From positions 123,695,786 to 123,759,785 of the forward strand of contig CM039462.1 in the NCBI GenBank assembly GCA_022414725.1: a stretch of DNA of 64,000 nt. The letters run 5' to 3'. Below are positions 8,219-60,278 of this stretch, piece after piece; position 1 is the first letter of the stretch, and each line of letters begins with the position of its first letter. A program made the position numbers and the translations under genes. The stretch is from Microglena sp. YARC (lineage: Eukaryota; Chlorophyta; Chlorophyceae; Chlamydomonadales; Chlamydomonadaceae). A model generated the notes under the pieces. The model had not been told where the DNA came from, searched no databases, and saw only the letters and a list, made by a program, of their open reading frames with translations.

Positions 8219-8327
8219 TTCCTTGATGGAGAGAGGTTCCGACTCGAGTCGGGTGGAGTACAGTTCGACTGCTACTCTACGTTTATGCTTTTTAGCTATT
8301 TTGAAACTGGCTCTGAGACGTGTCTCT

Positions 8328-21109: not shown

Positions 21110-21326
21110 AGTTAAATATAAGTTAATCTTGGTTAAATATAAGTTAAATATATATCTATGGAATATAAACATGAATGGAATATACTTATATCTATGGAAT
21201 ATAAGTTAATCTTGGTTAAATATAAGTTAAATATATATCTATGGAATAGAAATATGAATGGAATATATATCTATGGAATATAAGTTAATCTTGGTTAAAT
21301 ATAAGTTAAATATATATCTATGGAAG
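21110..21326. repeat. AT-rich ~80-bp tandem repeat
   Basis: Three copies of a unit containing AGTTAATCTTGGTTAAATA and TATATCTATGGAAT start at about 21121, 21204 and 21283. The array ends exactly where LINE homology begins, and its last ATGGAA supplies the ATG of the LINE ORF. Confidence 0.85.
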
Positions 21327-22678: not shown

Positions 22679-23286
22679 GATTGTCGTTTTCAACAAGCAC
22701 TTCTGTGATGAGGCCCGTATGGATCCTGATTACAAATTTGTAAATGATGGAGCACAGCTTTCTACAAAGTTATCTTTTATCTACCTGGGATCCCTCTTTG
22801 TGGATGGTGACTCAAGCGATCGTGCAAAAGCTGCTTTTTCTAGGATGCTCGCTAAGGCCCAAAAGGCTCACCACATGCTCCGTAGGCGATGCCATACTAT
22901 GGAGATATACAATATTGATATTCTCACCCACCTGTTTGATTCTCTTGTACAACCTATCCTGAATTTTGGATGTGAGGTGTGGGCTCCTTCTATTCTGAAC
23001 AACACACTTATCTCAAATGACCATGCTTGTGAGAAATGGCATAGAGGTATACTTAAACAAATGTTGGGTGTTTGCCAATCTACTACATCTAATATTATCA
23101 TGGAAGAGCTGGGTAGAACCCCGTTGTGTTTTTGCTTGGCTTAAACAAGCTTTGCGCTTCTGGAACAAGACCATAGATAAAGAACCTGAGGATCTCATTA
23201 GAATAGCTCTTGAGGAATCTTTTGATTCCAACACTGGCTGGGTTCATGACTTACGTTGTGCTCTCCACAAGCTAGGATCCAGTTAA
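22653..23286 (+). pseudogene. LINE region after RT, frame-broken
   Basis: Continues the LINE polyprotein in two frames: MAVNIKKTEIVVFNKHF... to 23144, then CVFAWLKQALRFWNK... to 23286. The switch lies in a T5 run near 23130, where the related copy at 59.9 kb has T4. The segment ends at TAA 23284-23286 where that copy has AAA (Lys). Thumb-type motifs (IYLGSLFVDGDSS, HMLRRRCHTME) are conserved between copies. Confidence 0.75.
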
Positions 23287-23298
23287 AACCTCAACATT

Positions 23299-23892
23299 TT
23301 GGAGGCTGTCGATGTCGAAGGTATTATGCCTGAAGTTTTTGAGTCATGGAGGTTTAAGTACCCAAGTGACACCAATGCAGTCAGAGACATCCCTGATGAG
23401 AGAAGGGTTGGATTTAAACGCCTCCGATACCAGAAATGGTTCGCAACCAACAGCAATGATGAGAATGGCTTGATTCCCTTTACATCTGCCTTACATAAGC
23501 AGGATCAGATTCGTTCTATAGCACAGTTTATAATGGGTTCCCATTGGCTGAACACAGAAAGAATGAGGGTGGTGGATAGAGCACACATCCCTCGTTCAAT
23601 GAGACACTGTCAAATGTGAGGGTTCCAAAAACCTGAGGATGAAATGCATATGTTTGAGTGCCCTTTTTATAATGATATTCGCCTCCGCTACCAGAAGCTG
23701 TTTACAGATATTTATAGGCATGTCCATGAGGATACCGACTTAACCGTATGGAATGTGGAATTCTGCGATTCCACATTCAGAACCTTTATGAATGGAAACG
23801 GCACTAAGACTTTCTGGAGCAACCTAGCCGACTATCTTTCTACTTGTAGAAGAGCAAGACAGGAAGCCCTGGACTGCTTAGTGGCACCGTAA
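23299..23892 (+). pseudogene. LINE C-terminal zinc-finger region
   Basis: Same frame as the preceding segment. It reads EAVDVEGIMPEVF... through a C-terminal finger of the zf-RVT type (C-x2-C, then H and C in EMHMFECPFYNDIR). In this copy the second finger cysteine codon is TGA (23617-23619), while the copy at 59.4 kb retains Cys. The normal stop is TAA at 23890-23892. Confidence 0.75.
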
Positions 23893-26009: not shown

Positions 26010-28223
26010 AGCAGGGCATGCGTTAGAGAGCAACCAAGGGCAGGGTTAATGGCAAGGGGCAGGACGGTGCGGTGATGAGCAGAGCATGGCATGTGTTACA
26101 TAGCAACCAATGGCAGGGAGCATGGCAAGGGGCAGCAGGCATGTGCTAAACAGAGCAGAGCAGGCATTATAGAGCAATGAATGGCAGGGAGCACGGTAAG
26201 GGGTATGGATGCGATAAGCAGATCAGGGCATGGGTTAGAGAGCAAAGCAGGGAAGGGAGCAAAGTACGCCTGGAAAGTGATGATCAGAGAAGGGCATGCG
26301 TTCAAGAGGAAGGAATGGAAGGGAGCAAAGCAAGGGGCAGGACCACGATGATCATAGTAATGCATGCATTTGAGAACCAAGAGCATGGATAATGGCAATT
26401 GCCAGTATCCCTGCCCCTCTTTGCTCTCTAACGCCTGCCATGCTCGGCTCATCACTGTCGTCCTGCCCCTCCCCATTATCCCTGCCCCTCATTGCTCTCT
26501 AACACCCACCCTGCTCTGCTCATCACTTTCGTCCTGCCCCTCGCCATTATCCCTGCCCCTCTTTGCTCTCCAATGCCTGCTTTTCTTTGCTCATCACTGT
26601 CGTCTTGCCCCTTGCCATTATCCCTGCCCCTCTTTGCTCTCTAACACCTGCTCTGCTCTGCTCATCACTGTCGTCCTGCCCATTGACATTATCCCTGCCC
26701 CTACCTTTTTACTCTCTAACGCCTGCCCTGCTCTGCTCATCACTGTCGTCTTGCCCCTTGCCATTATCCCTGCCCCTCTTTGCTCTCTAACACCTGCCCT
26801 GCTCTGCTCATCACTGTCGTCCTGCCCCTTGACATTATCCCTGCCCCTTTTTACTCTCTAACGCCTGCCCTGCTCTGCTCATCACTGTCGTCTTGCCCCT
26901 TGCCATTATCCCTGCCCCTCTTTGCTCTCTAACACCTGCCCTGCTCTGCTCATCACTGTCGTCCTGCCCCTTGACATTATCCCTGCCCCTTTTTACTCTC
27001 TAACGCCTGCCCTGCTCTGCTCATCACTGTCGTCTTGTCCTTTGCCATTATCCCTGGCCCTCTCTGCTCTCTATCACCTGCTCTGCTCTGCTCATTAAGT
27101 GTCCTGCCCCTTGCCATCATCCCTGCCCCTGTTTGCTCTCTAAACCTGCTCTGCTCTGCTCATCACTTTCATCTTGCCTTTCGCCATTATCCCTGCGCCT
27201 CTTTGCACTCTAAGGCCTGCCCTGCTCTGCTCATCACTGTCGTCCTGCCCCTCGCCATTATCAATGCCAGCCAGTTTGTACTCACGAGAGTAAAAAGGGG
27301 CAGGGATAATGGCAAGGAGCAGGACGACAGTGATGAGCAGAGCAGGGCAGGCGTTCGAGAGCAAAGATGGGCAGGGATAATGGCAAGGGGCAGGACGACA
27401 GTGATGAGCAGAGCAGAGCAGGCGTTCGAGAGCAAAGAGGGGCAGGGATAATGGCAAAGGACAGGACGACAGTGATGAGCAGGGCAGGGCAGGCGTTAGA
27501 GAGTAAAGAGGGGCAGAGATAATGGTAAGGGGCAGGACGACAGTGATGAGCAGAGAAAAGCAGGCATTAGAGAGCAAAGAGGGGCGGGGATAAAGGCAAG
27601 GGGCAAGACGACAGTGATGAGCAGAGAAAAGCAGGCGTTGGAGAGCAAAGAGGGGCAGGGATAATGGCAAGGGGCAGGACGACAGTGATGAACAAGGCAG
27701 GGCAGGCGTTAGAGAGCAAAGAGGGGCAGGGATATTGGCGAGGGGCTAGATGACAGTGATGAGCAGAGAAGGGAAGGCGTTAGAGAGCAAAGAGGGGCAA
27801 GGATAATGGCGAGGGGCAGGACGACAGTGTTGAGCAGAGCAGGGCAGGCGTTAGAGAGCGAAGAGGGGCAGGGATAATGGCAAGGGTCATGACGACGGTG
27901 ATGAACAAGGCAGGGCAGGCGTTAGAGAGCAAAGAGGGGCAAAGATAATGGAAAGGGGCAAGAAGACAGTGATGAGCAGAGCAGGCCAGGCGTTAGAGAG
28001 CAAGGAGGGGCAGGGATAATGGCAAAGGGCTAGATGACAGTGATGAGCAGAGCAGGGCAGGCGTTAGAGAGCAAGGAAGGGCAGAGAGCACGGATAGGGG
28101 TAGGATGGTGATTAGCTGGGCATGGCCTGCGCTACAGAGCAATGAAGTGCAGGGAGGATGGCAAGGGGCAGGACAGTGACGTGCAGAGCAGGGTATGCGT
28201 TAGAGATCAATGAAGGGCAGTGC
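26010..28223. repeat. ~71-bp minisatellite with inverted central block
   Basis: About 30 copies of a 70-72-bp unit (GGGCAGGGATAATGGCAAGG ... GATGAGCAGAGCAGG). Copies at 26010-26395 and 27290-28223 are in one orientation, while those at about 26400-27265 are inverted. The first switch is palindromic (GGATAATGGCAATTGCCAGTATCC), and a short spacer marks the second. Long open frames on both strands are by-products of the repeat. The arms could pair over about 0.9 kb. Confidence 0.9.
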
Positions 28224-30900: not shown

Positions 30901-31349
30901 TTGTAACAGCTGAGGATGCACTTAGCAGCCTGGGGGGTTAGTCTAGTGTAACAGGCTACGTGATGTATGTTTATGTGTAAGTCGATATGCGTAAGCTAGC
31001 AGAATGGTAAGGGGGTTACCTAGATAGGGGATGTAGAGCTTGCTTGGAAAGAACGTCTTCGTGGTAGGAGTAGAAGGGTTCGTTCCGAATAGCTCGTGTC
31101 TGTGCGCAACGTGTGCGTTGTGAGAGATGAGGCAGTACATAGGTATGGTACTTTATATTCTCTTATGAATCGTCACTTTATTCGAGAGCAAATTTCGTAG
31201 GCGCTACTTCTCCTCCGCATTAGCGGAAACTGGACTCGGGATGCCGCGACGCTAGGCTTTGCAATGATCATCAATTCGCGCAATCTGAGTTGAAATGGTC
31301 CCCCCTCAACTCAAACCTGCCGAATTCTCCACCCCCCTCCTTCTCCCAA

Positions 31350-32852
31350 ATGATCAACAACAACTGTCGGCGAGCAAGCATCTCGAGTCCGGATGAACGT
31401 CGCCCCAAGCAAGTTCAGGGGCGACCCATCTGGAGAGTGACGGGGGAAGTTGAAGTGCCCCCAGTCGATGCATGCGAACTGAACCTCACACACAACAAAT
31501 CCAAATCTGGGAACTTGACAGATCACTCTAACAAAATAATATCCTACCCTATCAATGCACACTTTGGCAAAACGGATCATCAAAAAGGCCCCGTTGCGGG
31601 GGACTGCCGCACCACCAACCAAGCGTTTGTCGTCAAACAAAATCAAACAAACTATACCACCATCTTTCTCAACTCTCGCTACTCTTACGCTGATACCTAC
31701 CTTGCCCTCGCTGGCCACCTTGCCCACGCTGGCCACCTTGCCCACGCTGGCTACCTTGCCCTCGCTGGCCACCTTGCTATTCTGCCTACCACGGCACCTC
31801 TTAATATCGCCCGTCATGGTGCAGGTGAAAATCCTGATGAATCGAATAGATTCAAGAGAATTGAGCCAGAGGGCCTTTCTCCTTGTCACTTGAAAACTGA
31901 CACCGACCTCTCTTATCTTACAGAACTCAATGGCCTCCCGCTACGTATCCTTTCTCGGGGAATCGAGATCGGTCCTGCCATCCTCCACCATTCAAACAGA
32001 AGACAGTGTGAGTTGGCCCTACGGGGAGGTAGACCTAGGGGGAGGACCAGACACTCCCCCACTAACAGTACCCACTACTGGGAACCCCAAGTAGCCTCTC
32101 ACTGCCAGATTCATGTTTTGAACACTTATCTTGGGTTCAGAGCACTAGATCTTTATAAAGTCTTGGAATTCTCTGTAAAACTGAACACCCATGTTAGAGC
32201 TTCCACTCAGCAGCACTGGACCTTAGATGGAAACTACTTCCACAGCTCCACTGGCAACTGTACAGTCCCTCTCATCAACTTCTACCTTGCCACAAAAAAA
32301 TCCCACCTTGGCTACATAACCGGCCACCAAAACTCCCGGACATACATTCCACACTACACCCCAACAACCACAGAGACTTCAGAAAATTATTCTGCAGGCA
32401 TACTGCTTGGCAGCTCACGAGAGCAAGTCCTGCAACGTATCCCCCCTCATTGCTCCCGCTTCATGCTCCACTACAATGCTGGATATGGACATGCAAAGAC
32501 TCCCAAGTTGCACAATGGTGAGTGGTGGGAATTAGACTCTGAGAACATGCAGGGCCCCAAGCGCCTACACTCCTCTGACTGGCAACACCTTCAGGGCCAC
32601 ATCTATGTGCTAACACACACAACACTCTCCTTTCAAGCGCACCCCTTCCAGCCTGAACTCTATTACAAGCCTAACAATCACACCACCACTACTGACCCTG
32701 AACCTGAACCTGAGCCTGAGCCTGAACCCGAGCCTACACATGAACTTGCACGGGCAGCCTCTATAGCTCTGGTGTCTACAGACGAGGAACCCTCACCCAA
32801 ACGGAAAAAAAACCCGCACTTCCAGACGCCAGGCCCCCACCTCTCGCAATAA
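31350..32852 (+). CDS. N-terminal segment with cysteine-protease-like domain
   Basis: The open frame begins at 31290 with TTG. The first ATG in it is at 31350. An early stretch has four 18-bp repeats (HLAHAG). In the 520-residue frame counted from 31290, QVASHCQIHVLNTYLG places Cys272 at the start of a helix, and GYGHAKTPKLHNGEWWELDS gives His401 and Asp416. This Cys-His-Asp spacing and context resemble papain-fold (Josephin/OTU-like) proteases. An acidic (EP)n run and a basic KRKK segment follow. The frame ends just after an A8 run (about 32805-32812), where dropping one A joins it directly to the endonuclease frame, so it is probably not a separate ORF1. Confidence 0.6.
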   Translation: MINNNCRRASISSPDERRPKQVQGRPIWRVTGEVEVPPVDACELNLTHNKSKSGNLTDHSNKIISYPINAHFGKTDHQKGPVAGDCRTTNQAFVVKQNQTNYTTIFLNSRYSYADTYLALAGHLAHAGHLAHAGYLALAGHLAILPTTAPLNIARHGAGENPDESNRFKRIEPEGLSPCHLKTDTDLSYLTELNGLPLRILSRGIEIGPAILHHSNRRQCELALRGGRPRGRTRHSPTNSTHYWEPQVASHCQIHVLNTYLGFRALDLYKVLEFSVKLNTHVRASTQQHWTLDGNYFHSSTGNCTVPLINFYLATKKSHLGYITGHQNSRTYIPHYTPTTTETSENYSAGILLGSSREQVLQRIPPHCSRFMLHYNAGYGHAKTPKLHNGEWWELDSENMQGPKRLHSSDWQHLQGHIYVLTHTTLSFQAHPFQPELYYKPNNHTTTTDPEPEPEPEPEPEPTHELARAASIALVSTDEEPSPKRKKNPHFQTPGPHLSQ

Positions 32853-32964
32853 ATCCCCCACAACTAAATCTCACTCACCAACACAACCTCAAACTGACAA
32901 CACTCAATCACATGCAACAACCTTACCCACTCCTAGCAGACCTGTCATTCCTGATGGCCGCAGG

Positions 32965-33996
32965 ATGCGACAGAGTAGGATTTTTGGAGCAGGCTCACCC
33001 ACCAAGAAACCTACACTGCCCAGACCTACCAAACCCCTCCCCCCCACTAAACGAACCAAGACAGATCATACCACCTTACACCCTGTCTTTCAGCAACAAA
33101 CTATACTTCACACTACTAACACCACCACTGTCAACTGCCGAGGCATAGGATCCTCCTGGGAAATGATCTATGATCACATTCGGACCAACAAAAATGACAT
33201 TGTTATTTTAAATGAAACTAAACTCACTTCCAATAGGAAAAGTATCATGAACATGATTAAAAAAGACATGCCAGACTACCACTTTCACCACAGCAGCAAA
33301 ACCATCCAACAAGCTACTAACGCTAACAACACTATTACCCACTCAGCTGGTGTCATCACCCTTATTAAGAAAACACTAACCACTCATCCCACTAATCATG
33401 AGATTCCTACCGGAATAGCTGGCCACCTCACACACCAAACTATTAACAACACCACACATATCTTGGGTGTCTATATGCCATGCAATGACCCCATCAAACG
33501 TGCTGCAATTTACAATCACATCCATTATATTATCTCTAAAAACCCCACTCACCAATACATAGCAGGGGGCGACTGGAACGCTGCCTACTATCCCACAGAC
33601 AGGAGCAGCACAACCAGTCACCCAGAAGACTACACCCACCAGCAACACTTAAGTAAGTACTTAATTAAACTCCAACCATCTCCACGTCCTCACACTTACT
33701 ACACTTACACAGACAACCATCCCTATAGCAGCAGGATTGACGATATCATCCTTATCAACTCCCCTCCAGGAACTATAGTGACAGAAGTCGTCCACCAGAT
33801 GGGAGACACTTTGGACCACATGGCCTTGGAACACCACATCACTTCTGCCCTCTTCCCCCTCCCAATCTTGACATTCCCCCTACTGACCCAACTCCCCAAC
33901 TACAGCTTCCACTTAAGCAACAAGACATGGCTAAGGCCAGAGAAGCAATCTCCCACCAATTCCTTCACCAATTTCAGCACAGCCATACCAACATAG
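32965..33996 (+). CDS. APE-type endonuclease segment
   Basis: Cuts target DNA for reverse transcription. Residues counted from the ATG at 32965: NCRG (57-60), ILNETKL with Glu84, LGVYMPCND, GGDWNAA (Asp203, Asn205), SSRIDDIIL (Asp259) and LDHMALEHH (Asp284/His285). These are all signature blocks of the exonuclease-endonuclease-phosphatase family used by LINEs. The frame is open upstream to the A8 run near 32812. After about 33850, in a C-rich run, the sense moves to the next frame, so the last 45 residues here are probably not native. Confidence 0.85.
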   Translation: MRQSRIFGAGSPTKKPTLPRPTKPLPPTKRTKTDHTTLHPVFQQQTILHTTNTTTVNCRGIGSSWEMIYDHIRTNKNDIVILNETKLTSNRKSIMNMIKKDMPDYHFHHSSKTIQQATNANNTITHSAGVITLIKKTLTTHPTNHEIPTGIAGHLTHQTINNTTHILGVYMPCNDPIKRAAIYNHIHYIISKNPTHQYIAGGDWNAAYYPTDRSSTTSHPEDYTHQQHLSKYLIKLQPSPRPHTYYTYTDNHPYSSRIDDIILINSPPGTIVTEVVHQMGDTLDHMALEHHITSALFPLPILTFPLLTQLPNYSFHLSNKTWLRPEKQSPTNSFTNFSTAIPT

Positions 33997-34955
33997 AAGC
34001 AGCATGGACTCTCGCACAAGCCCTCCTGGGAGAGGACAAAACACCCTCACACATCCAATCCATCAGGCAGGAACTCAAGACCTCCATCCCAGAAGACCTC
34101 AACAGCATGACTGAACATCTTATGATAACCTTGCACCAAGCTCTCACCATTATGACTGACACATGCCCCACCAAACCTACCATTCCAGGTATCTTCCTCC
34201 CCCGGCAAATTGCTAACTCATTCAGTAAAATTAACTACCACATTAAACATATTAAATCATTGCGCACAGCCTCCAACTATCTTAACCAGCAAGGCTATGA
34301 TGAACTTCGAATCAAACCTTTCACAACTCAAACTTACACCTCCTACACCAAAACTCAAATCCAACACCACCTTCAGAACCTGCTTCTATCTGACTACCGT
34401 TTATCTTTAACTGAGGACATCCACAACAGCACTGCAGAACAACGTACCATGCAATCAGCACTCAAGGAGGAACGGGTAACCTCATCTATCAAGAAGTTTC
34501 GGCGTCGTCTCAGCACCCAGGCAAGGCAAACACACAGATACATTTTCTCCCCTGAAGACCACAAACACACTCCCACTGCCTTGCTGGACACAAAAACCCA
34601 CACACTTAGCACTAGCACCCAAGGCCTCCTGGGCATCATGACCAGACACATGGAAACACTCATGCCACCACAAACCCCCCCCCCATCTCAGCCAACTACA
34701 CTGAGCACACCACTCCCCCCCCATGGGTCCACCAAATTGACAAATACCACCTGGAAACCCCAGCTAACTCCATCCAACACACAGCTTCTCCCTACACTTA
34801 CCTTTCCTCCTCTACCAATTTTACTGACTGCATCCGCAAGCTTGCCACCAATAAAGCAACTGGACCAGATGGCATCCCCAACGAGCTCATCCTCTGCCTC
34901 CCAACTGAAATGCATCAAATCATCCACAAACTCATGCAACTTGCATGGATATTAG
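33927..34955 (+). CDS. Endonuclease-RT linker segment
   Basis: A helical, charged region between endonuclease and RT (MAKAREAISHQFLHQF, YIFSPEDHKHTPTALLDTKT), typical of the LINE linker. The sense leaves this frame at a C9 run near 34713. In the following frame DCIRKLATNKATGPDGIPNE forms the start of the RT, so the last 80 residues of this ORF are out of frame. Confidence 0.65.
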   Translation: MAKAREAISHQFLHQFQHSHTNIEAAWTLAQALLGEDKTPSHIQSIRQELKTSIPEDLNSMTEHLMITLHQALTIMTDTCPTKPTIPGIFLPRQIANSFSKINYHIKHIKSLRTASNYLNQQGYDELRIKPFTTQTYTSYTKTQIQHHLQNLLLSDYRLSLTEDIHNSTAEQRTMQSALKEERVTSSIKKFRRRLSTQARQTHRYIFSPEDHKHTPTALLDTKTHTLSTSTQGLLGIMTRHMETLMPPQTPPPSQPTTLSTPLPPHGSTKLTNTTWKPQLTPSNTQLLPTLTFPPLPILLTASASLPPIKQLDQMASPTSSSSASQLKCIKSSTNSCNLHGY

Positions 34956-36184
34956 GGGAAACCCCGGACTGCTGGAAAATTTCTCACACAGTTATGCTCT
35001 ATAAGAAATCAGACCCGTGTCTCCCACAAAATTACAGACCGATAGGACTGAACAACGCAGTGGCCAAGCTATGGACCTCCTTGGTCACAAACACTCTCAC
35101 AACTTACTCTGAAACTAACCATATTCTCAGTGCCTGCCAGAAAGGCTTTCGAAAGGACAAGAGCACTTCCCGACAACTTCTCAACCTTCTCCACAATATA
35201 GAGGACGCTGCCCTCTTTCATCAAGATCTTTTTGCTGCCTACTTTGACTTTAGCTCAGCCTTCAACATGATTGATCACCAGAAATTACTGAGCATCATGC
35301 ACAATCTTGGTTACACGCATGACACAATAGACACAATTAAGGGCATTTACACTAACTCAACCACCCATATCCTTCTCAACAACACGCCTGGCTCTCCTAT
35401 CTCCATCACCAGAGGCACCATACAGGGAGACACCCTGTCCTCTCTCCTCTTCATTATCTTTCTAGAACCCCTCCACAGATGGCTCTGCTCTGGAGGGCGG
35501 GGTTACAGAGCAGCGTCCCTACCTGCCGCAACAGCTGATGAGCATCACACTAGTAGCTTGGGCTACGCTGACGACACTGCCGTCCTCACTAGTACCGCGG
35601 AGGATCTTCGAATCCAGTGTGGTAAGGTTCAACAATTTAGTGTCTGGTCTGGCATCCCACTCAATGCCACTAAATGTGTGGTCAGTGGCATTCTCCACAA
35701 ATCCCACCCCTCCCATCCTACCCATAACAACACCCTTAAACAACGCCTAAACAAAATACCTCTGGGTGACTCTTATGCAACATACCAACCTCCTGACATG
35801 GCCTACAAATACCTTGGGGTCCACATCTCTCTCACTCTTAATTGGAAAACTCAACTACACGCCACCATAGCAACCATTCATTCTAAAGGACTGAGTATTC
35901 TAACCAAAGCCAAACCCAGAGCAGCTCCAGATCAATGTGTCCGCATTATCACACAATGTATACGTGCAGCTATTAAATATCCCATGATAGTAGCCCCCTT
36001 CTCACTCACTGACATCCACGTCATTGATAGAGCAGTTCTCAAAACGGTCAAACTCTGCTGCACACTTCCCAGATCCTTTCCCACTAGAGCCCTTCAACTT
36101 CCTAAAACAGAAGCAGGTCTTGGAGTTCCCTCCTACTTACAGAGTACACTCAAATCACGGCTTCAGCCCTTACACAAGCCATGA
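34910..36184 (+). CDS. Reverse transcriptase segment
   Basis: The RT core reads NYRPIGL (41-47), KGFRKDKSTSRQLLNLL, YFDFSSAFNMIDH (catalytic Asp113), RGTIQGDTLSSLLF and LGYADDTAVL (Asp221/Asp222), followed by YKYLGVHISL in the thumb. The fingers begin upstream in the same frame (ATGPDGIPNELI at about 34856). It would copy the element RNA at the nicked target. The frame is lost near 36150, where KSRLQPLHKP replaces a better continuation (ASALTQAMNDQGH) in the next frame. Confidence 0.85.
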   Translation: MHQIIHKLMQLAWILGETPDCWKISHTVMLYKKSDPCLPQNYRPIGLNNAVAKLWTSLVTNTLTTYSETNHILSACQKGFRKDKSTSRQLLNLLHNIEDAALFHQDLFAAYFDFSSAFNMIDHQKLLSIMHNLGYTHDTIDTIKGIYTNSTTHILLNNTPGSPISITRGTIQGDTLSSLLFIIFLEPLHRWLCSGGRGYRAASLPAATADEHHTSSLGYADDTAVLTSTAEDLRIQCGKVQQFSVWSGIPLNATKCVVSGILHKSHPSHPTHNNTLKQRLNKIPLGDSYATYQPPDMAYKYLGVHISLTLNWKTQLHATIATIHSKGLSILTKAKPRAAPDQCVRIITQCIRAAIKYPMIVAPFSLTDIHVIDRAVLKTVKLCCTLPRSFPTRALQLPKTEAGLGVPSYLQSTLKSRLQPLHKP

Positions 36185-36669
36185 ACGATCAGGGCCATCT
36201 TGGCATTCTCACCAGAGCCCTTCTTAATAAAACTACTGCCACTATGACTACACTCAACCCTCTCTCTCTTTCCTCTAAACAGTTAACACACATGTCTCTA
36301 GCCCGTCAACTTGATATCCTTAGCCAATCCAGCATCAAACTCACTTGGAATGACACAGAACTTCTGGACAAACTTAACATCCACCCCCTACCTTCTCCTC
36401 CTCATGCCATACCTATCAAACTCATGACCCCCTTCCACGACTTGAATATTTATACCTACCATGACCTGGTCACACCTACGGGAACCCACCTCATCAGCAC
36501 TACTGATCTCCCCCTTATTACTTCCTCCAAAATTACCAAACATCACAGACGCTCTCTTAACCTTCTCACAGCCCACCTAACTCTGGCTAAATTCGACTAC
36601 CCCTCACCCACACCGAACCCCTCCGCTCATGCACCGCCAGCTCGCAGCCGAATACGCAGTCACACCTAA
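36181..36669 (+). CDS. Post-RT linker segment
   Basis: Overlaps the RT stop by 4 nt, but is better read as its frame-shifted continuation. It includes HHRRSLNLLTAHLTLA. No domain is recognised. The sense appears to pass to a frame at 36629-36880 (MHRQLAAEYAVTPNTTD), which ends at TGA shortly before a palindrome ACGCCATATTATGGCGT near 36950. Confidence 0.5.
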   Translation: MNDQGHLGILTRALLNKTTATMTTLNPLSLSSKQLTHMSLARQLDILSQSSIKLTWNDTELLDKLNIHPLPSPPHAIPIKLMTPFHDLNIYTYHDLVTPTGTHLISTTDLPLITSSKITKHHRRSLNLLTAHLTLAKFDYPSPTPNPSAHAPPARSRIRSHT

Positions 36670-37010
36670 CACTACTGACATTATCAAACTCCCACCCACC
36701 ACTGACTGTATTGCCACCCCTACCCAACGCTACTACTCCTCCACCCCTCTAACTGACGCAGACTACGGGGCGGATTCCCTTGGGGACATCGAAGGGAACC
36801 AATGGCGGGCATGGCCTACAACAACTGCTGACAGCTACGCGCAGCGTGCGTGGGGCTGCAACAGTAAAGACGAAACCTGAGCGGCCCGCCACTACCCGTG
36901 TAAATCCTGGATTCACCATAGCACCACAACGCGATTTTTCCGCCACTACGCCATATTATGGCGTGTAGTTATTAACTAAAACTTCCCACCCTGACAGGAC
37001 CCGCGAGGCT

Positions 37011-37727
37011 ATGCTCTACCCAACGGCCAACGCTCCTGCACCGCCAACTCGCTTACTCCATCTCACCTATGGCTCCCAATACAAAGCTCTCTATATTACT
37101 AGCTGGCGCAGCAAACGCTCCCTAGACACCGGCAACTCTACCAGTACTACTGTTGCCCACGTTCAGTGGGCTCCCACAACCATGCACAATGACCACATCC
37201 ATTCCTACACTCAAGCTGGATATAGCATCCATTACAGCAAACCAGTCACTTCCACCATTTCTATCATCCACTGGAAACCGCAATCTCACTTCATCTCTCA
37301 CCTCTGCGAAATGCTGGGGCAACAAGCCTACGACCAACTCGTCCACACCTTCAAGTCAGCCCCTTTCACCACCACTTGTCAAAATCTGAGGAAAGACTCC
37401 CACCTTACCAACCCTCAGCAGCAAGGCCAATGGACCACCACCCCAGGCTTCCAAGCTGACAACCACGCCCTTGTCCACAAATTGCTGCATGTGGATACAC
37501 AAGACAGACACCCAGACTGGGACATCCAACCACCCCTCTCCTACATTATCCAAACAGGCATCCTCACCAACAAGGATGGCCAGGACACCCACACACACAA
37601 ACATCTCTCTTATCTCTACACCCCCACTGGGAAATGTATTGGGCACACCCCAACAACAGACTTACCTCCCTCCAGCAGAATTATGAGCACTTCAAAACTA
37701 CCCACCCTACCAAATAGCAACAACTAA
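37011..37727 (+). CDS. Central segment of unknown function
   Basis: A 238-aa frame with two similar short motifs, VQWAPTTMHNDHI and IHWKPQSHFISHL, that recall the W-P core of chromo-like folds without the usual acidic residue. I do not assign a family. It continues past the stop at 37727 in a diverged frame (TDLAALFTRYRATPASTN, LGITHTELLLLSAM) toward the block upstream of RNase H. Confidence 0.45.
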   Translation: MLYPTANAPAPPTRLLHLTYGSQYKALYITSWRSKRSLDTGNSTSTTVAHVQWAPTTMHNDHIHSYTQAGYSIHYSKPVTSTISIIHWKPQSHFISHLCEMLGQQAYDQLVHTFKSAPFTTTCQNLRKDSHLTNPQQQGQWTTTPGFQADNHALVHKLLHVDTQDRHPDWDIQPPLSYIIQTGILTNKDGQDTHTHKHLSYLYTPTGKCIGHTPTTDLPPSSRIMSTSKLPTLPNSNN

Positions 37728-37977
37728 CCCAGGGAGGAACCTACCATACAGACCTAGCTGCTCTCTTCACTAGGTACAGAGCTACCCCTGCTTCTACCAA
37801 CATTCTCTCTCCTGTCCTCCACCAAGCCATAGCAAAGCTAGGTATCACCCACACCGAACTTCTACTCCTCTCAGCTATGATCAGAGCCTTCTCAGCTACT
37901 CCTCTCCTCACCTAGCTGACCAGCTCTTTGGGTCCAACGAGGACCCCTTCCACACTGTCTGGACTGGGGGCTCCCTA

Positions 37978-39105
37978 GTGGACATCCCTAGCTCAGTCAC
38001 CCTGGCACACCAAGCACTCAGGTGGGCCCTAGCCAGTGCAGATTATGCTGAGACTTCCATCAGTCAGCCCCCCACATGCACTGTCATGCTCATCCCTGAC
38101 ACTTGCTATGCTCCCTACAACAAACTTCTCCACCACCCCTGGGTCCACTACATTGACTCCAGGCCCCACTCTGAACTTTATGATACCTCTGACACCTGGT
38201 TGGGCAGTAAACTCCACACCCTCCCATCAACCCAAAAGTTACACCTCATCCTTATCTGCAGTCCCCAAAGTCAACTTACGTACTTTCCCAACCTTCAAGC
38301 CTTTATCCAGCTTTGGCACGACCACATGCACAGCCTCTCCCCCCACTTAGAGCCCACCACTATTACCCCACCTGACACCCTCACCTCCTCTGACACTCAG
38401 ATCACTTACCCTAGAAAACTCAGATCACTCACCTCAAAACCTTGGCACACTCCACACCGCGAGCACCCTCAACCTCTTACTCCTCCCACTACTCACCCAT
38501 GCACATACCCAGCAATCCTCTCTGCAGGCCTCCAGGTCTACACAGATGGCAGCCTGATCAAAGGTAACTCGGCCTCCCCTAGTAAAATAGGGGCTGCAGT
38601 TTATGTCCCCATTGCAGGGATGAGCTACACCATCAACCCAGGTGGGCGGGGGGGCACCAGGACTAACAACAGAGCAGAACTAGTGGCAATTCACCAAGCC
38701 ATTATTAACATTCCATACGATACTAACCTCACCCTCCACACTGACAGTCTCTGTTCACTTCAACTCATCAAAAAAATGATCCATGATCCCACCACAGCCA
38801 CGCGCTCCCTACATGCTGAGCTGCTACATTCAATCCAATCTCACCTTATTCAACGAATTGTACATGGCTCACACACCACCCTTTGCAAAGTACGCTCCCA
38901 CACAGGCATTCTTGGAAATGACCGGGCTGACAGCCTAGCGCGTAAGGCCGCAGATGACCCTGCCTCCAGCAGATATACTGATAACACTGGGGAAATCCCC
39001 AGACACCCCCTGATAACACTGGGGAAATCCCCAGACACAATGTTTACTGGCCCACTGTCCAACCTCCTCGCACACCCATGGGAGATATCCCCCCACGCAT
39101 TCTAG
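37978..39105 (+). CDS. RNase H segment with possible methyltransferase-like block
   Basis: RNase H spans residues 184-325: LQVYTDGS (Asp190), NNRAELVAI (Glu234), LTLHTDS (Asp256), RSHTG (His308) and GNDRAD (Asp315), the complete type I set, which would remove RNA from the RNA-DNA hybrid. The N-terminal half (open upstream from about 37885) reads YSSPHLADQLFGSNEDPF, then PTCTVMLIPDTC and LLHHPWVHY, a layout that recalls PCIF1-type adenine methyltransferases but with the NPPF catalytic site replaced (DIPS). That is a tentative inference. After residue about 340 a 32-bp tandem duplication shifts the frame, so the C-terminus is not native. Confidence 0.8.
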   Translation: MDIPSSVTLAHQALRWALASADYAETSISQPPTCTVMLIPDTCYAPYNKLLHHPWVHYIDSRPHSELYDTSDTWLGSKLHTLPSTQKLHLILICSPQSQLTYFPNLQAFIQLWHDHMHSLSPHLEPTTITPPDTLTSSDTQITYPRKLRSLTSKPWHTPHREHPQPLTPPTTHPCTYPAILSAGLQVYTDGSLIKGNSASPSKIGAAVYVPIAGMSYTINPGGRGGTRTNNRAELVAIHQAIINIPYDTNLTLHTDSLCSLQLIKKMIHDPTTATRSLHAELLHSIQSHLIQRIVHGSHTTLCKVRSHTGILGNDRADSLARKAADDPASSRYTDNTGEIPRHPLITLGKSPDTMFTGPLSNLLAHPWEISPHAF

Positions 39106-39830
39106 CACCTAACCTCACACAAGGCATCAGCTCCAACCTACCCCCTAGCTGCCACATTGGCCAACACCCGCTTAAAGGGATTTATGCAACCACCTGGGCC
39201 GATAACACTCCTCACCAACTTCCTCATGCAAGTAATAAATTTTGGTCCTCTACCCTTATCCAACATAAAACTAAATTCCACATCCTTAAAGCCCGCTGGG
39301 GTCGACTGTGGAATCGTAAACTTGCATATCGGTGGAAACTTCCTTATATTAACAACACCCACCCGCCCACAAACCCTCTATGCCCCATATGCCGCATCTG
39401 TGAGGACGGAGCGGGCCACATTCTGGCGCTCTGCTCACACCAGACTTTCAAGGGGCTCTATATCAAGAGACATGACGCCGCAGTGCGACTCATCCACAAG
39501 GCCATCTGCACTGGCGACCTGGGCTCACGCAGAATGATTACGGACGCTGGCAAGGAAGAGGACCTCCCCAGGGGGGTCCTAGGCAAACGCCTCCCTGACT
39601 GGCTACGCCCTTCCTCTATTACAGAAGAGGCCTGGAGGAGAATGAAACCTGACCTTGCCATCCTACCTGACATAGGCTCTCCTACCGTCTTAAGAGATAA
39701 AGAAACTTGGCTCCTTGAGCTTGGCTATTGCTCTGATACCAACCATGCTACCAAGTTTATCACTAAACATGCCCAGCATGCTAGACTAGTGGATGGCCTC
39801 CAATCGCTGGATATCTTGTTCACTACGTAG
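39078..39830 (+). CDS. Zinc finger and restriction-like endonuclease (RLE) segment
   Basis: A 250-aa frame. CPICRICEDGAGHILALC gives a C-x2-C-x8-H-x4-C finger (Cys102, Cys105, His114, Cys119). RHDAAVRLIHKAI follows (131-143), then RRMKPD with Lys190/Asp192 and WLLELGY with Glu214. A CCHC finger followed by (K/R)PD and a later D/E on a beta strand is the RLE signature of R2-like elements and Dualen. The PD-to-E spacing (21) is longer than in R2. It ends at TAG 39828-39830. The domain call rests on motif order; a search is needed to confirm it. Confidence 0.7.
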   Translation: MGDIPPRILAPNLTQGISSNLPPSCHIGQHPLKGIYATTWADNTPHQLPHASNKFWSSTLIQHKTKFHILKARWGRLWNRKLAYRWKLPYINNTHPPTNPLCPICRICEDGAGHILALCSHQTFKGLYIKRHDAAVRLIHKAICTGDLGSRRMITDAGKEEDLPRGVLGKRLPDWLRPSSITEEAWRRMKPDLAILPDIGSPTVLRDKETWLLELGYCSDTNHATKFITKHAQHARLVDGLQSLDILFTT

Positions 39831-40171
39831 TTATCACAATTGGAACAACGGGTACTATCCCAACTTCCTTCTTGACTTCTATGGCTACACTTGGATTTAA
39901 CAGATTGTGTGCCCTTCGATTGGCAGACACAGTCCACTCTCACTCTATTTCTAGCTTTCAAAGTATTTTACAGTGCAGACGCTTTATGGAGACCCAACAG
40001 GGCTCAATACCAGGGGATTAGTAATTTCCCTGGTTCTCCTTGTTAAAGTTTGCCCACCAGGGGCTTATTTAGACTCCCTGACAAGGAGACTCTTTTATGG
40101 TGACTACTGCTAGCTCGGCTTACGCAGTGGTGTCCTTAACTTCACGTCCTGAGAGTGGCGCATTACTCGGA
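39831..40171. other. Possible 3' UTR of the Dualen-like element
   Basis: No gene is seen. The stretch has no poly(A) or clear end repeat. It runs directly up to the TG of the next element's LTR. Confidence 0.4.
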
Positions 40172-40297
40172 TGTAACAATTTCAATTTCAATATGGTACT
40201 GTATCATGTGCGTTCGTCACGTGGCTTACGGGTACGAGGGTACCCGTATGCCTTGCTGGACGGCCAGAGTACCCGTGAAGGGTTCTGTACCGTTACA
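40172..40297 (-). repeat. Candidate short 3' LTR
   Basis: A 126-bp segment starting TGTAAC and ending GTTACA, preceded on the minus strand by a pure purine run (GGAGGGGGGGAG, 40298-40309) that fits a polypurine tract. No second LTR copy is visible, so the boundary is inferred. Confidence 0.5.
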
Positions 40298-40463: not shown

Positions 40464-41121
40464 TTATAAATAAAGCAATCTAACCGCCGTGCGTATGCGT
40501 CGAGTGCGATGGTGGGTGATGGGCCCGTTTTTTTGACGTACGTTGGGATACAACGGGCGTAACAACGTGATTGCCATGCATCGACCACGTTGAGGGGCCA
40601 CTTTTCTTGACTGCCCTGGCGAGTTCCCAAGTGTCTTGTTCAATACCGAAGTCTTGCCATCGGACCAAGTATTCAAGACAGTCGTTTGCTGGATGTGCCG
40701 ATGACACGCGACTTTCACGCATATGCATTGGATGTTCCAAATCGGAGCGCCGTCGGAGTCGAACTCAAGCGGTTGTCCAACATGGACAACGCCATCAGAG
40801 CGCCAATGCTTGATCAAACCCACGTGAAACACGGGGTGGATGCGCATCATCTTAGGCAAGGCTAAGCGGCACGCCGTGACCTGCCGGACGACTCCAGTCT
40901 GCTCGTCGCGCGGACCAATGCATTCTGTTAATCGTGTAGGGACCAACAAAACGAGGCGTAAATTTTGGTTTACCAGTTGCTTTGAACTTCATATTGCGGG
41001 TGGACAGAGAGAACTTTATCACCAAGGTTGAAGAAAACCTCCGTTCGTCGTTTATCGTAATGGGCTTTCTGCCGATTTTGAGCGGCTTGCATGCATGCTT
41101 TGCATTGATCTTGGCGTTCAA
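40464..41121 (-). pseudogene. Chromodomain and integrase C-terminus, frame-broken
   Basis: Segments read KFTPRFVGPYTINR (the GPY/F-type integrase tail), KMMRIHPVFHVGLIKHW, and YLVRWQDFGIEQDTWELA, a chromodomain core. They fall in at least three frames. Confidence 0.75.
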
Positions 41122-41162
41122 TGTGATCGCCCACCAATTGTTGGCAGCCGGACATTTCGATT

Positions 41163-41790
41163 CTATTCCGCTTTGAGAGGCGTCGTAGGGTCGTAGCCAA
41201 GGTACGCCCGAAAGGGTGTGTTCTGAATGGACTCTTGGTAGGAATTGTTGATAGCGAACTCCACCAATGCCAAAGACTTATCCCAATCGTCATGGTATGG
41301 CCCCACGTAGTGGCGAATCATGTCCTCGATGACGCGGTTCATGGTTCTGTTTTGACCGTCAGTCTGTGGATGGAACGCAGTCGAAAACGCTTGTCGCGTG
41401 CCATTAGTTTCGATGGAGAGCAACGCCGAAATGACCAGTGAATCGCGCGTCGCGATCACTGAGGAGCTTCTTCGGGATACCATGATATCGGATGACCCGA
41501 TTGAGGTATAGGAAGCGAATTCCTCAGCGTTAATCGTCGTGTGACAAGGTTCGACATGAACCATTTTGGACAGTTTGTCGACGAACACAGCGATGGCGTC
41601 ATGGCCGACGATGTTGGTGGAAGCGCCGTAATAAGGTCTGTGGAGACGCACTCCCAGAATTTTTGTCAGGAATTTCCACGGGCACCATGGTACCGTTCGG
41701 CTTTGCGTTTCCGGGTTTGTTCGTTTGGCACTTATGGCACTGTTGGACGAAGGCAGTCCATCAGCCGTAACCTTGGCCCAAGTAAACGTT
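41163..41790 (-). pseudogene. Integrase core, frame-broken
   Basis: Reads DAIAVFVDKLSKMVHVEPC, then STAFHPQTDGQNRTMNRV and LALVEFAINNSYQ, all integrase blocks. The DGQNRT stretch shows Asn-Arg where active copies have a catalytic Glu (DGQTER in the inner element). The finger region CHKCQ lies further upstream, near 41740, in another frame. Confidence 0.75.
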
Positions 41791-41956
41791 GCGCGTGACT
41801 AGTTCCAACGTTTTTTGTGCGACCGCAATGGCCCATGTAAACCGGATCGTGAGCTTCGCGGATAATATCCAGGCGAAGAGCCGCGTCAAGAGGGACGCAT
41901 AAGAATTCGCGGCCGTACTTGTTTTTCTTGAACTAGTACCGTTTCTGGAAAATTTA

Positions 41957-42349
41957 TCACGGAGGCGCTTGCAGCCTGGCGTGAAGTTTGAGTCCGTTTT
42001 GTAACCAGCCAAAATTCGATCCGTGATGGAGAGAGAGGAGGGAGTCGATGCCAAGGGCATCGGGCGTCTGCGTCGTCGCGTTTCTTTGACCGGCACCGAA
42101 GGTGCGGGCATGACCGTAGGAGGGCGGGGCGGAACCTGAATGACTGTGGGGACCGACCGCAACAGGGCGAGGTTTCCTTGATCGAGGACGACATTCGCTG
42201 ACCAAGAGCGAGAACACCAACAGCTGGTGCGCTACCGCGACGTCGGCGGGGGCGGAGAGGTTGGGGTTGCGACTAACAGGGTCAGCCATATTATTGCGAC
42301 CAGCGCGATACTCCCAAGTATAGCTAAAGGGCGCGAGGTCCTCCTGCAT
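41957..42349 (-). pseudogene. RNase H end fragment
   Basis: FSYTWEYRAGRNNMADPVSR is the typical end of a gypsy RNase H (compare IAGRTNVADPLSR in the inner element). The rest of this frame lacks features. More RNase H sense lies near 42350-42700 in other frames. Confidence 0.65.
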
Positions 42350-42729
42350 CGACCCATCGTCGTGAAAGGACCGCTTTGGTATCGAAGTAAGTGAGCGGAT
42401 TATGGTCGGTGAACAACGTCATGTGGGAGCCTTCGAGATAGCACCGCCATTCGGTCAACGGCGTGGACGATTGCTAGCATTTTCTTGTTCAGTCGTTGTA
42501 TAATTCAGCTCCGCTGGGATATACTTTTTGCTGGCGAAGGCGATGGGGTGTTTATCTTGTAAGAGGCACCCCGCCTGTACCAAGTAAGGATGCGTCAGTA
42601 ATTACTTCGAATGGTTTGCTTAAAATCCGGAAGCGCGAGGACTGGGCGCGGAAGCAAGGCTTTCTTTGAGGCCTTCGATAGCTACGAGATGTTCATTTTT
42701 GAACAAGGGGCCAAGCTCACCCTTAAATG

Positions 42730-43700
42730 TTAGACAAGGTTTGAAGAGGCGCGAGGGACGAATATCCCTTGGGATAAACTTGCGAAAGTAATTGCACAAA
42801 CCCGAGGAATTGCCGATTTGTTTCTGCCGTCTTTGGAAGTAGGCCAGTCGCGGACTGTGCTAACCTTTTTCGGATCAACTTTAATTCCGTTCGCGTCAAT
42901 GTAATGACCAAGGAAATTTAACCTCTGTCTTGTTGAATGAACATTTGGAGAGCTTCGCGTAGAATTCGTTTGTCCTGGAGGACTTGGGAGGACCGTCGTG
43001 GCCAAGTTGGCCAAGTGTTCCGCCGGAGTGCGTCCGTAACCAAGATATCGTCCAAGTAGACCACAACGAACTTGTGCAAGTAGGGCGCGAATATCTGGTT
43101 CATGACCGCTTGGAACGTGGCCGGCGCGTTTGCCAACCCCATCCCAAGGACTTTAAATTCGAACTGACCAATCGGGGTAGTGAACGCAGTCTTCGGCGCG
43201 TCGGCTCGTCCGATATACGTATTTGGTAAATAACCAGACGTGAGGTCTAGGGAACTAAACAAAGTAGCTCCACCTAGACGGTCAATGGTCTCGTCAATAC
43301 GGGGAAGGGATACCTATTTTTAATCGTAATCATGTTGTTGAGTGCTCGCCAATCGCAAACAACACGGTATCGCCGTTCCGCCTAGTTTCTATGCTATGAT
43401 CATAATCGGCGCTCCGTACGGGGACGAGCTCGGGGCGATGAAGCCTTGTTGTTAAAAGGTCGGAGACGTACTCTTCACATATTAATGTCTTCGGCTGGAC
43501 TCATGCGACGATTCCTGCGATACGGGGCGTACGCATTGTCTTGCGTTTTGATGACGTGAGGTATGACGCGATGGTTAGGAGTCCCCATCGGCAAATTGTT
43601 GAAGACTTTGCGATATTTCCATAGGAGGGCGCGCAGATCGCTGGCCCAAATTAGCGTTTTATCGTTGTTGTCAAGGATGTTGTCGTGATCCAATTTTCGA
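42730..43700 (-). pseudogene. RT of the second chromovirus, frame-broken
   Basis: FSSLDLTSGY, TPIGQFEFKVLGMGLANAP and VVVYLDDILV mark the RT core. Upstream, LWKYRKVFNNLPMGTPNHRV is the N-terminal connection. The frame shifts several times between 42730 and 43475. Confidence 0.8.
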
Positions 43701-44204: not shown

Positions 44205-45204
44205 NNNNNNNNNNNNNNNNNNNNNNNNNNNNNNNNNNNNNNNNNNNNNNNNNNNNNNNNNNNNNNNNNNNNNNNNNNNNNNNNNNNNNNNNNNNNNNNN
44301 NNNNNNNNNNNNNNNNNNNNNNNNNNNNNNNNNNNNNNNNNNNNNNNNNNNNNNNNNNNNNNNNNNNNNNNNNNNNNNNNNNNNNNNNNNNNNNNNNNNN
44401 NNNNNNNNNNNNNNNNNNNNNNNNNNNNNNNNNNNNNNNNNNNNNNNNNNNNNNNNNNNNNNNNNNNNNNNNNNNNNNNNNNNNNNNNNNNNNNNNNNNN
44501 NNNNNNNNNNNNNNNNNNNNNNNNNNNNNNNNNNNNNNNNNNNNNNNNNNNNNNNNNNNNNNNNNNNNNNNNNNNNNNNNNNNNNNNNNNNNNNNNNNNN
44601 NNNNNNNNNNNNNNNNNNNNNNNNNNNNNNNNNNNNNNNNNNNNNNNNNNNNNNNNNNNNNNNNNNNNNNNNNNNNNNNNNNNNNNNNNNNNNNNNNNNN
44701 NNNNNNNNNNNNNNNNNNNNNNNNNNNNNNNNNNNNNNNNNNNNNNNNNNNNNNNNNNNNNNNNNNNNNNNNNNNNNNNNNNNNNNNNNNNNNNNNNNNN
44801 NNNNNNNNNNNNNNNNNNNNNNNNNNNNNNNNNNNNNNNNNNNNNNNNNNNNNNNNNNNNNNNNNNNNNNNNNNNNNNNNNNNNNNNNNNNNNNNNNNNN
44901 NNNNNNNNNNNNNNNNNNNNNNNNNNNNNNNNNNNNNNNNNNNNNNNNNNNNNNNNNNNNNNNNNNNNNNNNNNNNNNNNNNNNNNNNNNNNNNNNNNNN
45001 NNNNNNNNNNNNNNNNNNNNNNNNNNNNNNNNNNNNNNNNNNNNNNNNNNNNNNNNNNNNNNNNNNNNNNNNNNNNNNNNNNNNNNNNNNNNNNNNNNNN
45101 NNNNNNNNNNNNNNNNNNNNNNNNNNNNNNNNNNNNNNNNNNNNNNNNNNNNNNNNNNNNNNNNNNNNNNNNNNNNNNNNNNNNNNNNNNNNNNNNNNNN
45201 NNNN
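44205..45204. other. Assembly gap, 1000 N
   Basis: Exactly 1000 undetermined bases, most likely a placeholder rather than a measured length. It separates the second chromovirus from the 30-bp satellite. Confidence 0.98.
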
Positions 45205-48200
45205 ATGCATTATGACCTAGTGAGCTTTGCTGGTGACATTTTGACTAGTGAGCGTGCAGGAGCATTAGATCCTAGTGAGTGTGCGGTGAGCATTATTGCC
45301 CTAAGTGAGCCGCTGGTGCATTATGACCCTAGTTAGCTTGGTGGTGTTTATTGATCTTGGTGATCCTCTGGTGAGCGTTATGATTCCTAGTTAGTTACTA
45401 GTCGTCTTATGACCCTAGTGAGCGTGCTGGTGATCATTATGAACCTATTGAGGGTGTCTGGCGAGCATTCTGACCTAGTGAACCTGTGGTGAGATTTTGC
45501 GCCTATGACGTGTAGTGGCATTATGACCTAGTGAGTGTGCTGGTGATTTTATGATCCTAGTGAGTGCTGGTGAGCATTAATGCCCTAAGTGAGGCCCTGC
45601 TGGTGGAGCATTATACTAGTTAGCTTGGTGTGTTCAGTATGATTTAGTGACTTGCTGGTGGCATTTATGATCTAGGAATGTGTGGTGAGCATATGCCCTA
45701 GTGGAGTGGTCTGGTGAGCTTATTGCCCTAGGAAGCCTGCTGGTGAGCAAATATGACCTATTAGTTGGTGGTGTTCAATATGATCTTAGTGATCCTGCTG
45801 TTGAGATTATGTCTAGTTAGCTTACTAGTGACATTATGACCTAGTGAGCCCTGCTGGTGGAGCATTATGACCGTAGTGAGCATGTTGGTGAGCATATGAC
45901 CTAGTGAGCCTGCTGGTGAGCATTTTGAACCTAGTGAGCGTGTTAGTGAGCATTATGATCCTAGTGAGTGTCTGGTGTGCATTATTGCCCTAGAAGACCT
46001 GCGGTGAGGCTTATGACCTAGTTAAGCTGGTGGTCGTTAATGTTATCTTAGTGATCTGCTGGTGAGCATTATGATCTAGTTAGCTTACAGTGAATCTTAT
46101 GACCTAGTGAGACTGGCTGGTGATCATATGTCCTAGTGAGGGTTTGCTGGCGAGCATATGACCTAGTGAGCCTGCTGGTAGAGCATTTTGAACCCTAATG
46201 AGCTGCTGGTGAGTTATTGACCCTAGTGGAAGCTGGTTAGTGAGCTGTTGATCTAGTGTGTGACGGTGAGCATATGCCTAGAGAGCCTGCTGTGAGCATT
46301 ATGACAGTTGCTTGGTGTTGTTTAATATTTATCTTAGTGATCCTGCTGGTGAGCATTATATCCTAGTTAGCTTACTGTGACATTATGACGCTAGTGAGAC
46401 TGCTGGTGTCTATGACCCTAGTGAGGGTGTGGCGATCATTATGACCCTAGTGAGCTGCTGGTAGAGATTTTGACCCTAGTTAGCTTACTAGTGATATTAT
46501 GACCTAGTGAGCTGCTGGTAGCATATTCCATAGTTTAGCCTGCTAATGAGCATTATGGATCTAGTTAACTGTGGTGGTTATTATGATCTTAGTAGATCCT
46601 GAGTGACATATGACTCCTATGAGCATGCCGTGAGCATTTGACCCTAGTGAGCTTCTAGTGTTCATTACGATCCTAGTGAGCTATCTAGTGATTATTAGAC
46701 CTAGTGAGCGTGCTTGGTTGATCATTTGAACCTAGTGAGACTCTGGTGATATTATGACCTAGTGAGCCGTGTGGTGAGCATTATGGACCCTAGTGAGCTT
46801 GCTGGTGAGCATTTTGACGCCTATTGAGCGTGCTAGTGAGCATTATGATCTAGTGAGTGTGCTGGTGAGCATTATTGCTTCGTGAGCTGCTGGTGACATT
46901 ATGAACCCTAGTTAGCTTGGTGGTGTTTTAAATATGATCTTGGGATGCCTGCTTGAAGCGTTATGATCCAGTGTAGTTTACTAGTGATCATTATGACCCT
47001 AGTGAGCGTGCTGGTGATCATTATGAGCCCTATTGAGGGTGTTGGCTGAGCATTCTGACCCTAGTGAGCCTGCTGGTTGAGCATTTTGACCCTAGTGAGC
47101 GTGCTAGTGAGCATTATGATCTAGTGAGTGTGCTGGTGATTATTATGATCTATGAGTTCTGGTGACTTATTGCCCTATGAGCCCTGCTTGGTGAGATGAA
47201 TGACCCTAGTTAGCTTGTGTGTTCAATTGATCTTAGTGATCTTGCTGGTGAGCATTATGTCCTAGTGAGTTGCTGGTGAGCATTATGAATAGTGAGTGTG
47301 CTGTGAGCATTATTGCCCTAGTGAGCCTGCTGGTGAGCATTTAATGACCCTAGTTGCTTGGTGGTGTTACATATAGATGCTTAGTGATCTGCCTGGTGAC
47401 ATTAATGATCCTAGTTAGCTTACTAGTGATCATTAATGACCCTAGTGAGACTGCTCGGTGGAGCATTATGACCTAGTGAGATGTTGGTGAGCATTATGAT
47501 ACGCTATGTGAGCTGCTGGTGAGCATTTTTGACCCTACGTGAGCTCGTGTTTAGTGAGCATTATGAATGCCTACGTGAGTGTGCTGGTGAGCATTATTGC
47601 CCTAGAGAGCCTGCTGGTGACATTAAATGACCCTAGTTTAGCTTGGTGTGGGTTTTAATGTTATCTAGTGATCCTGCTGATGGCATTTAATGATCCTAGT
47701 TAGCTTAATCTAGTGATCATTATGACCCTAGGAGACTGCTGGTGATCATTACCCTAGTGAGGGTGCTGGCGAGCATTATGACCCTAGGCGCCTGCTGGTG
47801 AGCATTTTGACCCTAGTGAGCCTGCTGGTGAGCATTTTGCCCTAGTGACGCGTGTTGTGAGCATTAATGATCCTAGTGAGTGTGCTGGTGAGCATTATTG
47901 CCCTAAGAGAGCTCTGCTGTGAGCATTATGACCCTAGTTAGCTGGTGGTGTTTATATTATCTTAGTGATCCTGCTGGTGAGCATTATGATCCTAGTTAGC
48001 TTACTAGTGATCATTATGACCCTAGTGAGACTGCTGGTGATCATTATGACCCTAGTTGAGGGTGCTGGCGAGCATTATGACCCTAGTGAAGCCTGCTGGT
48101 GAGCATTTTGACCCTAGTTAGCTTACTAGTGATCATTACTGACCCTAGGTGAGCCTGCTGGTGACATATTAACCATAGTTAGCCTGCTAATGAGCATTAT

Positions 48201-59116: not shown

Positions 59117-59134
59117 AAACCCTAAACCCTAACC
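59117..59134 (-). repeat. Short interstitial telomere-like repeat
   Basis: AAACCCTAAACCCTAACC, about two and a half units of the plant-type telomere motif (TTTAGGG on the minus strand), directly at the 3' end of the LINE fragment. Confidence 0.75.
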
Positions 59135-60255: not shown

Positions 60256-60278
60256 GAAAATTGTGTTCCATTGTGTAG

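Follow-up and report, generated by a model that had tools for sequence, protein, structure and literature searches.

Whether a single retrotransposon can carry both an APE-type endonuclease and a restriction-like endonuclease (RLE) is the question raised by a locus of the green alga Microglena sp. YARC (assembly GCA_022414725.1, contig CM039462.1, positions 123,695,786 to 123,759,785), a stretch of 64,000 nucleotides that we call the window and whose own numbering is used throughout. An earlier note, made from the letters alone, had placed such an element at 31290..39830 and likened it to Dualen, a long interspersed nuclear element (LINE) with two endonucleases. Our analysis indicates that the plus strand between roughly 31.9 and 40.2 kb is very probably one non-long terminal repeat (non-LTR) retrotransposon of the Dualen/RandI type, present as a broken copy. 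The strand and the motifs of the original call were borne out; its end was wrong, as the conserved C-terminus of the RLE runs on at 39806-40018.

The first endonuclease is readily recognized. The APE-type domain (33124..33828, plus strand) matches Pfam Exo_endo_phos at 3.9e-11 over 33166-33747, and its motifs ILNETKL, GGDWN, RIDD, and LDH start at 33205, 33565, 33733, and 33811, just as the earlier note had listed them ahead of the reverse transcriptase (RT) on this strand. Four relatives (L001, P0092, P0134, and L002) score 49.7-71.6 bits against this piece with shuffled maxima of 21.9-25.8, the distant relative L002 giving 71.6 bits where the maximum of 60 shuffles was 25.8. A PDB sequence search with the APE piece returned no match at 0.01. 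The RT follows at 34679..36139 (Pfam RVT_1, 9.9e-25; YADD within 35558-35587) and is 90% identical to P0016 over 59% of the query. Its C-terminal region, traced by tblastn of P0058, occupies 36133..37535 in three frame pieces that contain an in-frame stop at 36878-36880.

The second endonuclease lies at 39462..40018 on the same strand, after the RNase H, and is assigned from its homologues, its conserved residues, and the R2 RLE fold of the relative P0002. A CCHC finger with the spacing CX2CX8HX4C, CPICRICEDGAGHILALC, precedes it at 39381..39434 and is kept in all six of the relatives that cover the region (P0001, P0002, P0003, P0005, P0014, and L002). The RLE residues are RHD at 39468, KPD at 39645-39653, E at 39717-39719, and K at 39753 and 39765, so that the finger and the KPD...E of the earlier note do stand where it had put them. 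The window piece scores 89.7 bits against L002 (maximum of 60 shuffles, 23.9) and is 49% identical to P0002; beyond a frame change near 39805, the C-terminus at 39806-40018 is 83% identical to P0007. Could this be an ordinary APE-type LINE with an RNase H and a C-terminal zinc finger, its RLE a product of chance? The last long piece of the window, searched at E up to 1, has no Pfam match over the RLE, and P0002 has a weak zf-RVT match (0.36), both of which would fit such a reading. Against it, 14 homologues were found at E up to 1, PD...E...K is conserved in the 15-row RLE alignment (E245, K257, and K261 being invariant), and the seven best PDB matches of the predicted P0002 model are all R2 retrotransposon proteins, the model having been made from alignment A9, in which a gap misplaces the PD of L002. 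We regard a chance resemblance as very improbable and retain the RLE, whose similarity, expected by the earlier note in profile or structure, appeared in the predicted structure of a relative and not in the Pfam profile. When the RLE piece was searched against PDB sequences, as were profiles or single rows from the RLE, PCIF1-like, and protease regions, RNase H was the only relevant match; a ferredoxin-NADP reductase match (0.0012) was rejected as chance.

That both nucleases belong to one unit is argued best by relatives in which the frame is intact. L002 (PUMO01000097.1, 9489 bases) has a single 3038-residue frame that is open at the 5′ end. Pfam finds Exo_endo_phos in this frame at residues 81-317, with RVT_1 at 748-1027 and RNase_H at 2516-2650; by tblastn, its residues 2286-2650 and 2738-2937 match the window, the latter being the CCHC/RLE part. 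Among the relatives only L002 spans both APE and RLE, and none contradicts the order: L003 runs from RT to the PCIF1-like domain in one frame, and P0015 joins the protease to the start of the APE. Two nested or adjacent elements, one APE-type and one RLE-type, could mimic a single one, and the roughly nine frame changes of the window element and a differing GC skew at 36751-37000 are what such an arrangement might leave. However, L002 passes from APE to RLE without a break, P0058 (612 residues in one frame) spans 35678-37535 with the odd-skew stretch included, and a single RT lies between the two nucleases in the window. Because of L002 and P0058, we reject the nested arrangement, which seems to us highly unlikely. 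The unit proposed by the earlier note thus holds from APE to RLE, and its full domain order applies to the family; the single open frame and an unbroken order do not apply to this copy. The contigs of L001, L002, and L003 are filed as Mollicutes/Clostridiales metagenome genomes from one sample series (B1Sed10). Their LINEs are of eukaryotic type and likely contamination of public bins; L002, whose content is a eukaryotic LINE, is for that reason probably a contaminant of a Mollicutes genome. Three scans of viral contigs returned no related locus.

How badly is the copy damaged? Ten frame pieces were counted, with nine changes of frame between them, all on the plus strand: 32070-32837, 32776-33819, 33741-34700, 34679-36139, 36133-36582, 36587-36955, 36939-37535, 37834-38952, 39078-39803, and 39806-40018. 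Their bounds are tblastn matches with small trims, except for 33741-34700; correspondingly, eight of the nine changes are bracketed by homology and the ninth comes from an open frame (33741-34955) between APE and RT. The stop at 36878-36880 is clear, for P0058 reads through there in one frame; a second at 36966-36968, on the edge of a frame piece, is doubtful and may fall outside the true frame. Tandem Repeats Finder reports a 32-base duplication (38978..39038, 1.9 copies, 100% matches) near a frame change. Such a balance, some nine frame changes but a single clear stop and retained catalytic residues, would suit either recent decay or assembly indels. If the changes were assembly errors, the genomic copy would be intact and perhaps active. 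A single clear stop among 2569 codons (overlapping pieces added together), the preservation of catalytic residues in APE, RT, RNase H, and RLE, the position of two frame changes near long A or C runs (judged by eye), and a 1000-base N gap inside the window all favor this possibility. The stop and the duplication, in contrast, resemble true lesions, and a 1190-residue Gypsy frame in the same window (4784-8356) is uninterrupted. An intact genomic copy is accordingly conceivable and somewhat unlikely, and we describe the copy as broken.

The RT also bears on the class of the element. In a tree of 34 rows, the root of which is not determined, it falls within a 29-row clade (support 100/99) separate from the three R2 rows (99/95), in agreement with the claim that this RT is distinct from those of R2 and L1. 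This clade is partly a matter of construction because 25 of its 29 rows are matches of the query RT, picked by hand from the best 120 of 229 found. Of 35 rows prepared, L004 was dropped for want of a match to the RT core, and L1 and a second LINE of the window form long branches of unsure place. The clade includes L001-L003, so that L002, with its APE and RLE in one frame, groups with the element; it holds one named alga, Gonium pectorale (P0026), and no row labelled Dualen.

Three further domains complete the element. RNase H (38523..38952, plus strand), which the earlier note had also called, matches Pfam RNase_H at 6.9e-17 and has the D-E-D-H-D residues, with motifs starting at 38536, 38665, 38734, and 38890 and SHTG kept. 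It scores 84.0 bits against L002 (maximum of 60 shuffles, 20.0). Alignments A4 and A6 misplaced this piece and were not used for structure; A4 served as a search profile. Near the 5′ end, a region at 32070..32690 on the same strand carries QVASHCQIHVLN at 32088-32123, GHAK from 32487, and GEWWELDSE at 32517-32543, with Q, C, and H, and likewise H and D, spaced as we take them to be in ataxin-3. It is 57% identical to P0015 over 174 residues. Pfam Josephin scores P0015 at 7.3e-5 (23.1 bits, cut-off 26) and L001 at 0.023, or 0.0066 for a shorter piece, also below the cut-off; it had no match in the window pieces, and PDB gave no relevant sequence match for the region. From its sequence, then, the element probably encodes a Josephin-like cysteine protease, and the protease of the earlier note is kept as probable, its Pfam support being these sub-threshold scores in relatives.

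The third domain was overlooked by the earlier note. A PCIF1/CAPAM-like domain is probable at 37837..38370 (plus strand), where the window piece scores 52.0 bits against L002 and 39.3 against L003 (shuffled maxima 21.9 and 21.2). Pfam PCIF1_WW scores the L003 piece at 3.3e-7 (30.5 bits, curated cut-off 31.1) and L002 at 0.0011 (19.0 bits, below the cut-off), with no match in the window piece, and the six best structural rows for the L002 domain, which lies between RT and RNase H, are PCIF1/CAPAM. The catalytic NPPF of this cap adenosine methyltransferase, at 553-556 in human PCIF1 (PMC10544176), is replaced by DIPS in the window and by HPIY in L002 and L003, in a register that is approximate and taken from the aligned range. 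No WW domain came up when L002 and the window pieces were scanned with Pfam. A generic Rossmann fold with no kinship to PCIF1 is a less probable reading, and we give it little weight beside a PCIF1-like domain. Among the titles and abstracts listed in a search of open-access literature, none describes such a domain in a retroelement; a report may exist elsewhere. Between RT and this domain, a Cys/His-rich PHD- or RING-like finger was observed at L002 residues 1978-2023 (zf-RING_15, 0.0016, below cut-off) and, by eye, in L003; Pfam had no match to it in L003 or the window pieces.

Several observations weigh against the Dualen/RandI assignment or parts of it. No sequence labelled Dualen was among those compared. 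The RLE fold is predicted for P0002 and not for the window's own piece. The protease and PCIF1-like calls lie below Pfam cut-offs and lean on relatives: the protease piece scores 19.6 bits against L001, under the shuffled maximum of 22.7, and PCIF1_WW is not listed when the whole L002 frame is scanned at E up to 5. L001, which carries protease-like, APE, and RT parts, is itself interrupted. Finally, with some nine frame changes and one or more stops, the copy cannot work as it stands.

The likely extent of the whole element is 31153..40191 on the plus strand, with a provisional 5′ end, based on a 9-base direct repeat, TATGGTACT, at 31144-31152 and 40192-40200. The repeat is a candidate only because 6.55% of random positions would match equally well, and the last T of its 3′ copy may be part of a neighboring LTR. 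Protein homology begins at 32163 by tblastn, with a protease-like motif at 32088, the 5′ coding end being provisional. Coding similarity stops at 40018, followed by a stop codon where P0007 also ends, and 2.5 copies of CAATTT read at 40177..40191 form the 3′ tail. GC skew is negative from about 31250 to 40000. Abutting the 3′ end is a 98-base TG...CA stretch (40200-40297), probably an LTR of a decayed minus-strand Gypsy element at 40464-43313; an exact-word search found no second copy, and the N gap lies at 44205-45204.

The rest of the window is rich in repeats. A second LINE family (RVT_1, 7.1e-27) occupies 21305-23892 on the plus strand and 59133-60287 on the minus strand, and 22733-23884 is 91.6% identical to the latter copy; its RT is nearer L1 (97.1 bits) than R2 (85.5 bits). 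Direct repeats of 822 bases (1646-2467 and 11346-12166, 99% identical) surround the uninterrupted minus-strand Gypsy-type pol, which has a sub-cut-off Chromo match, and the whole is likely a young LTR element of about 10.5 kb. A Copia-type pol (60279-63707, minus strand; RVT_2 1.7e-44, gag_pre-integrs 8.5e-14) consists of two open stretches with one stop between, and its low end adjoins the second LINE copy. An 11.2-kb tandem array with a 30-base unit (45207-56434) starts just past the N gap, and adjacent 71-base arrays at 26399-27262 and 27286-28220 have consensus units that look mutually reverse-complementary.

How might an intact copy work? It would make one very long polyprotein, as the APE-to-RLE frame of L002 and the protease-APE junction of P0015 suggest. 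Target-primed reverse transcription is established for L1. The same holds for R2 (PMC6895275), and by homology with both the element would follow this route: an endonuclease would nick the target, the RT would copy the element RNA from its 3′ tail, and RNase H would remove the template. The nucleases would most likely share the cuts, one making the first nick and the other cutting the second strand; alternatively, the RLE/CCHC module might set the site and the APE provide a general nick. The protease may cleave the polyprotein or remove ubiquitin. The PCIF1-like domain would probably bind capped element RNA and not methylate it because NPPF appears lost. We tentatively suggest, as an idea with the odds somewhat against it, that Dualen-type elements carry, between RT and RNase H, a captured PCIF1/CAPAM-like domain, its catalytic motif lost, that grips the capped 5′ end of their own RNA. 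If this is true, a LINE polyprotein would hold both RNA ends and supply two endonucleases for two strand cuts. Little is understood of the second half of LINE integration (PMC6895275), and an element with both nuclease types in one polypeptide would let each cut be traced to its enzyme through separate active-site mutants. Dualen is regarded as marking the transition from RLE to APE elements (PMC4640811), which another branch that includes an uninterrupted relative makes easier to test. A confirmed PCIF1-like domain would be an unexpected RNA-cap-related part in a LINE, and a broken two-endonuclease copy with a cap-enzyme-like stretch may shed light on the construction and copying of such elements.

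Comparison with known systems places these features in context. R2 shares a CCHC finger and an RLE with the element, and R2 chains are the top fold matches of the relative's model, but the R2 RT rows stand apart from the element's clade; we know of no R2 with an APE or an RNase H. The KPD motif is the one altered in the R2Bm mutant KPD/A (PMC6895275), and RLE clades have one open reading frame with RT and then endonuclease (PMC3636483). L1 resembles the element in its APE before the RT and differs in the RT itself, the best L1 chain scoring 52.0 bits and the best R2 chain 82.4. To our knowledge, L1 has no RLE and Utopia/NeSL no APE, and the protease of the latter is from another family than that of the element. 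Utopia/NeSL are RLE elements, some with a Ulp1-like cysteine protease, and the RNase H of oomycete Utopia lies before the RT with R replacing H (PMC4640811), unlike that of the window element, which keeps SHTG. The likeness to Dualen/RandI lies in the presence of APE, RLE, and RNase H, a domain set compared by description and not by sequence. Dualen was reportedly described from Chlamydomonas reinhardtii by Kojima and Fujiwara in 2005 and is said to have a cysteine protease. Dualen/RandI combines an APE and a PD-(D/E)XK endonuclease in one element (PMC3636483) and has an RNase H (PMC4640811), and the CAATTT tail resembles the (ATT)n or (CTATTT)n 3′ ends of green-algal RandI families (PMC3747384); the excerpted Dualen/RandI text of these three papers does not mention a PCIF1-like domain. 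Dualen is not confined to C. reinhardtii, since it has been reported from every curated species of PMC8226300 and, with the exception of Guillardia theta, from cryptophytes (PMC12747079). The element described here is very probably a further member of this rare Dualen kind, and the evidence for both of its nucleases is strong.

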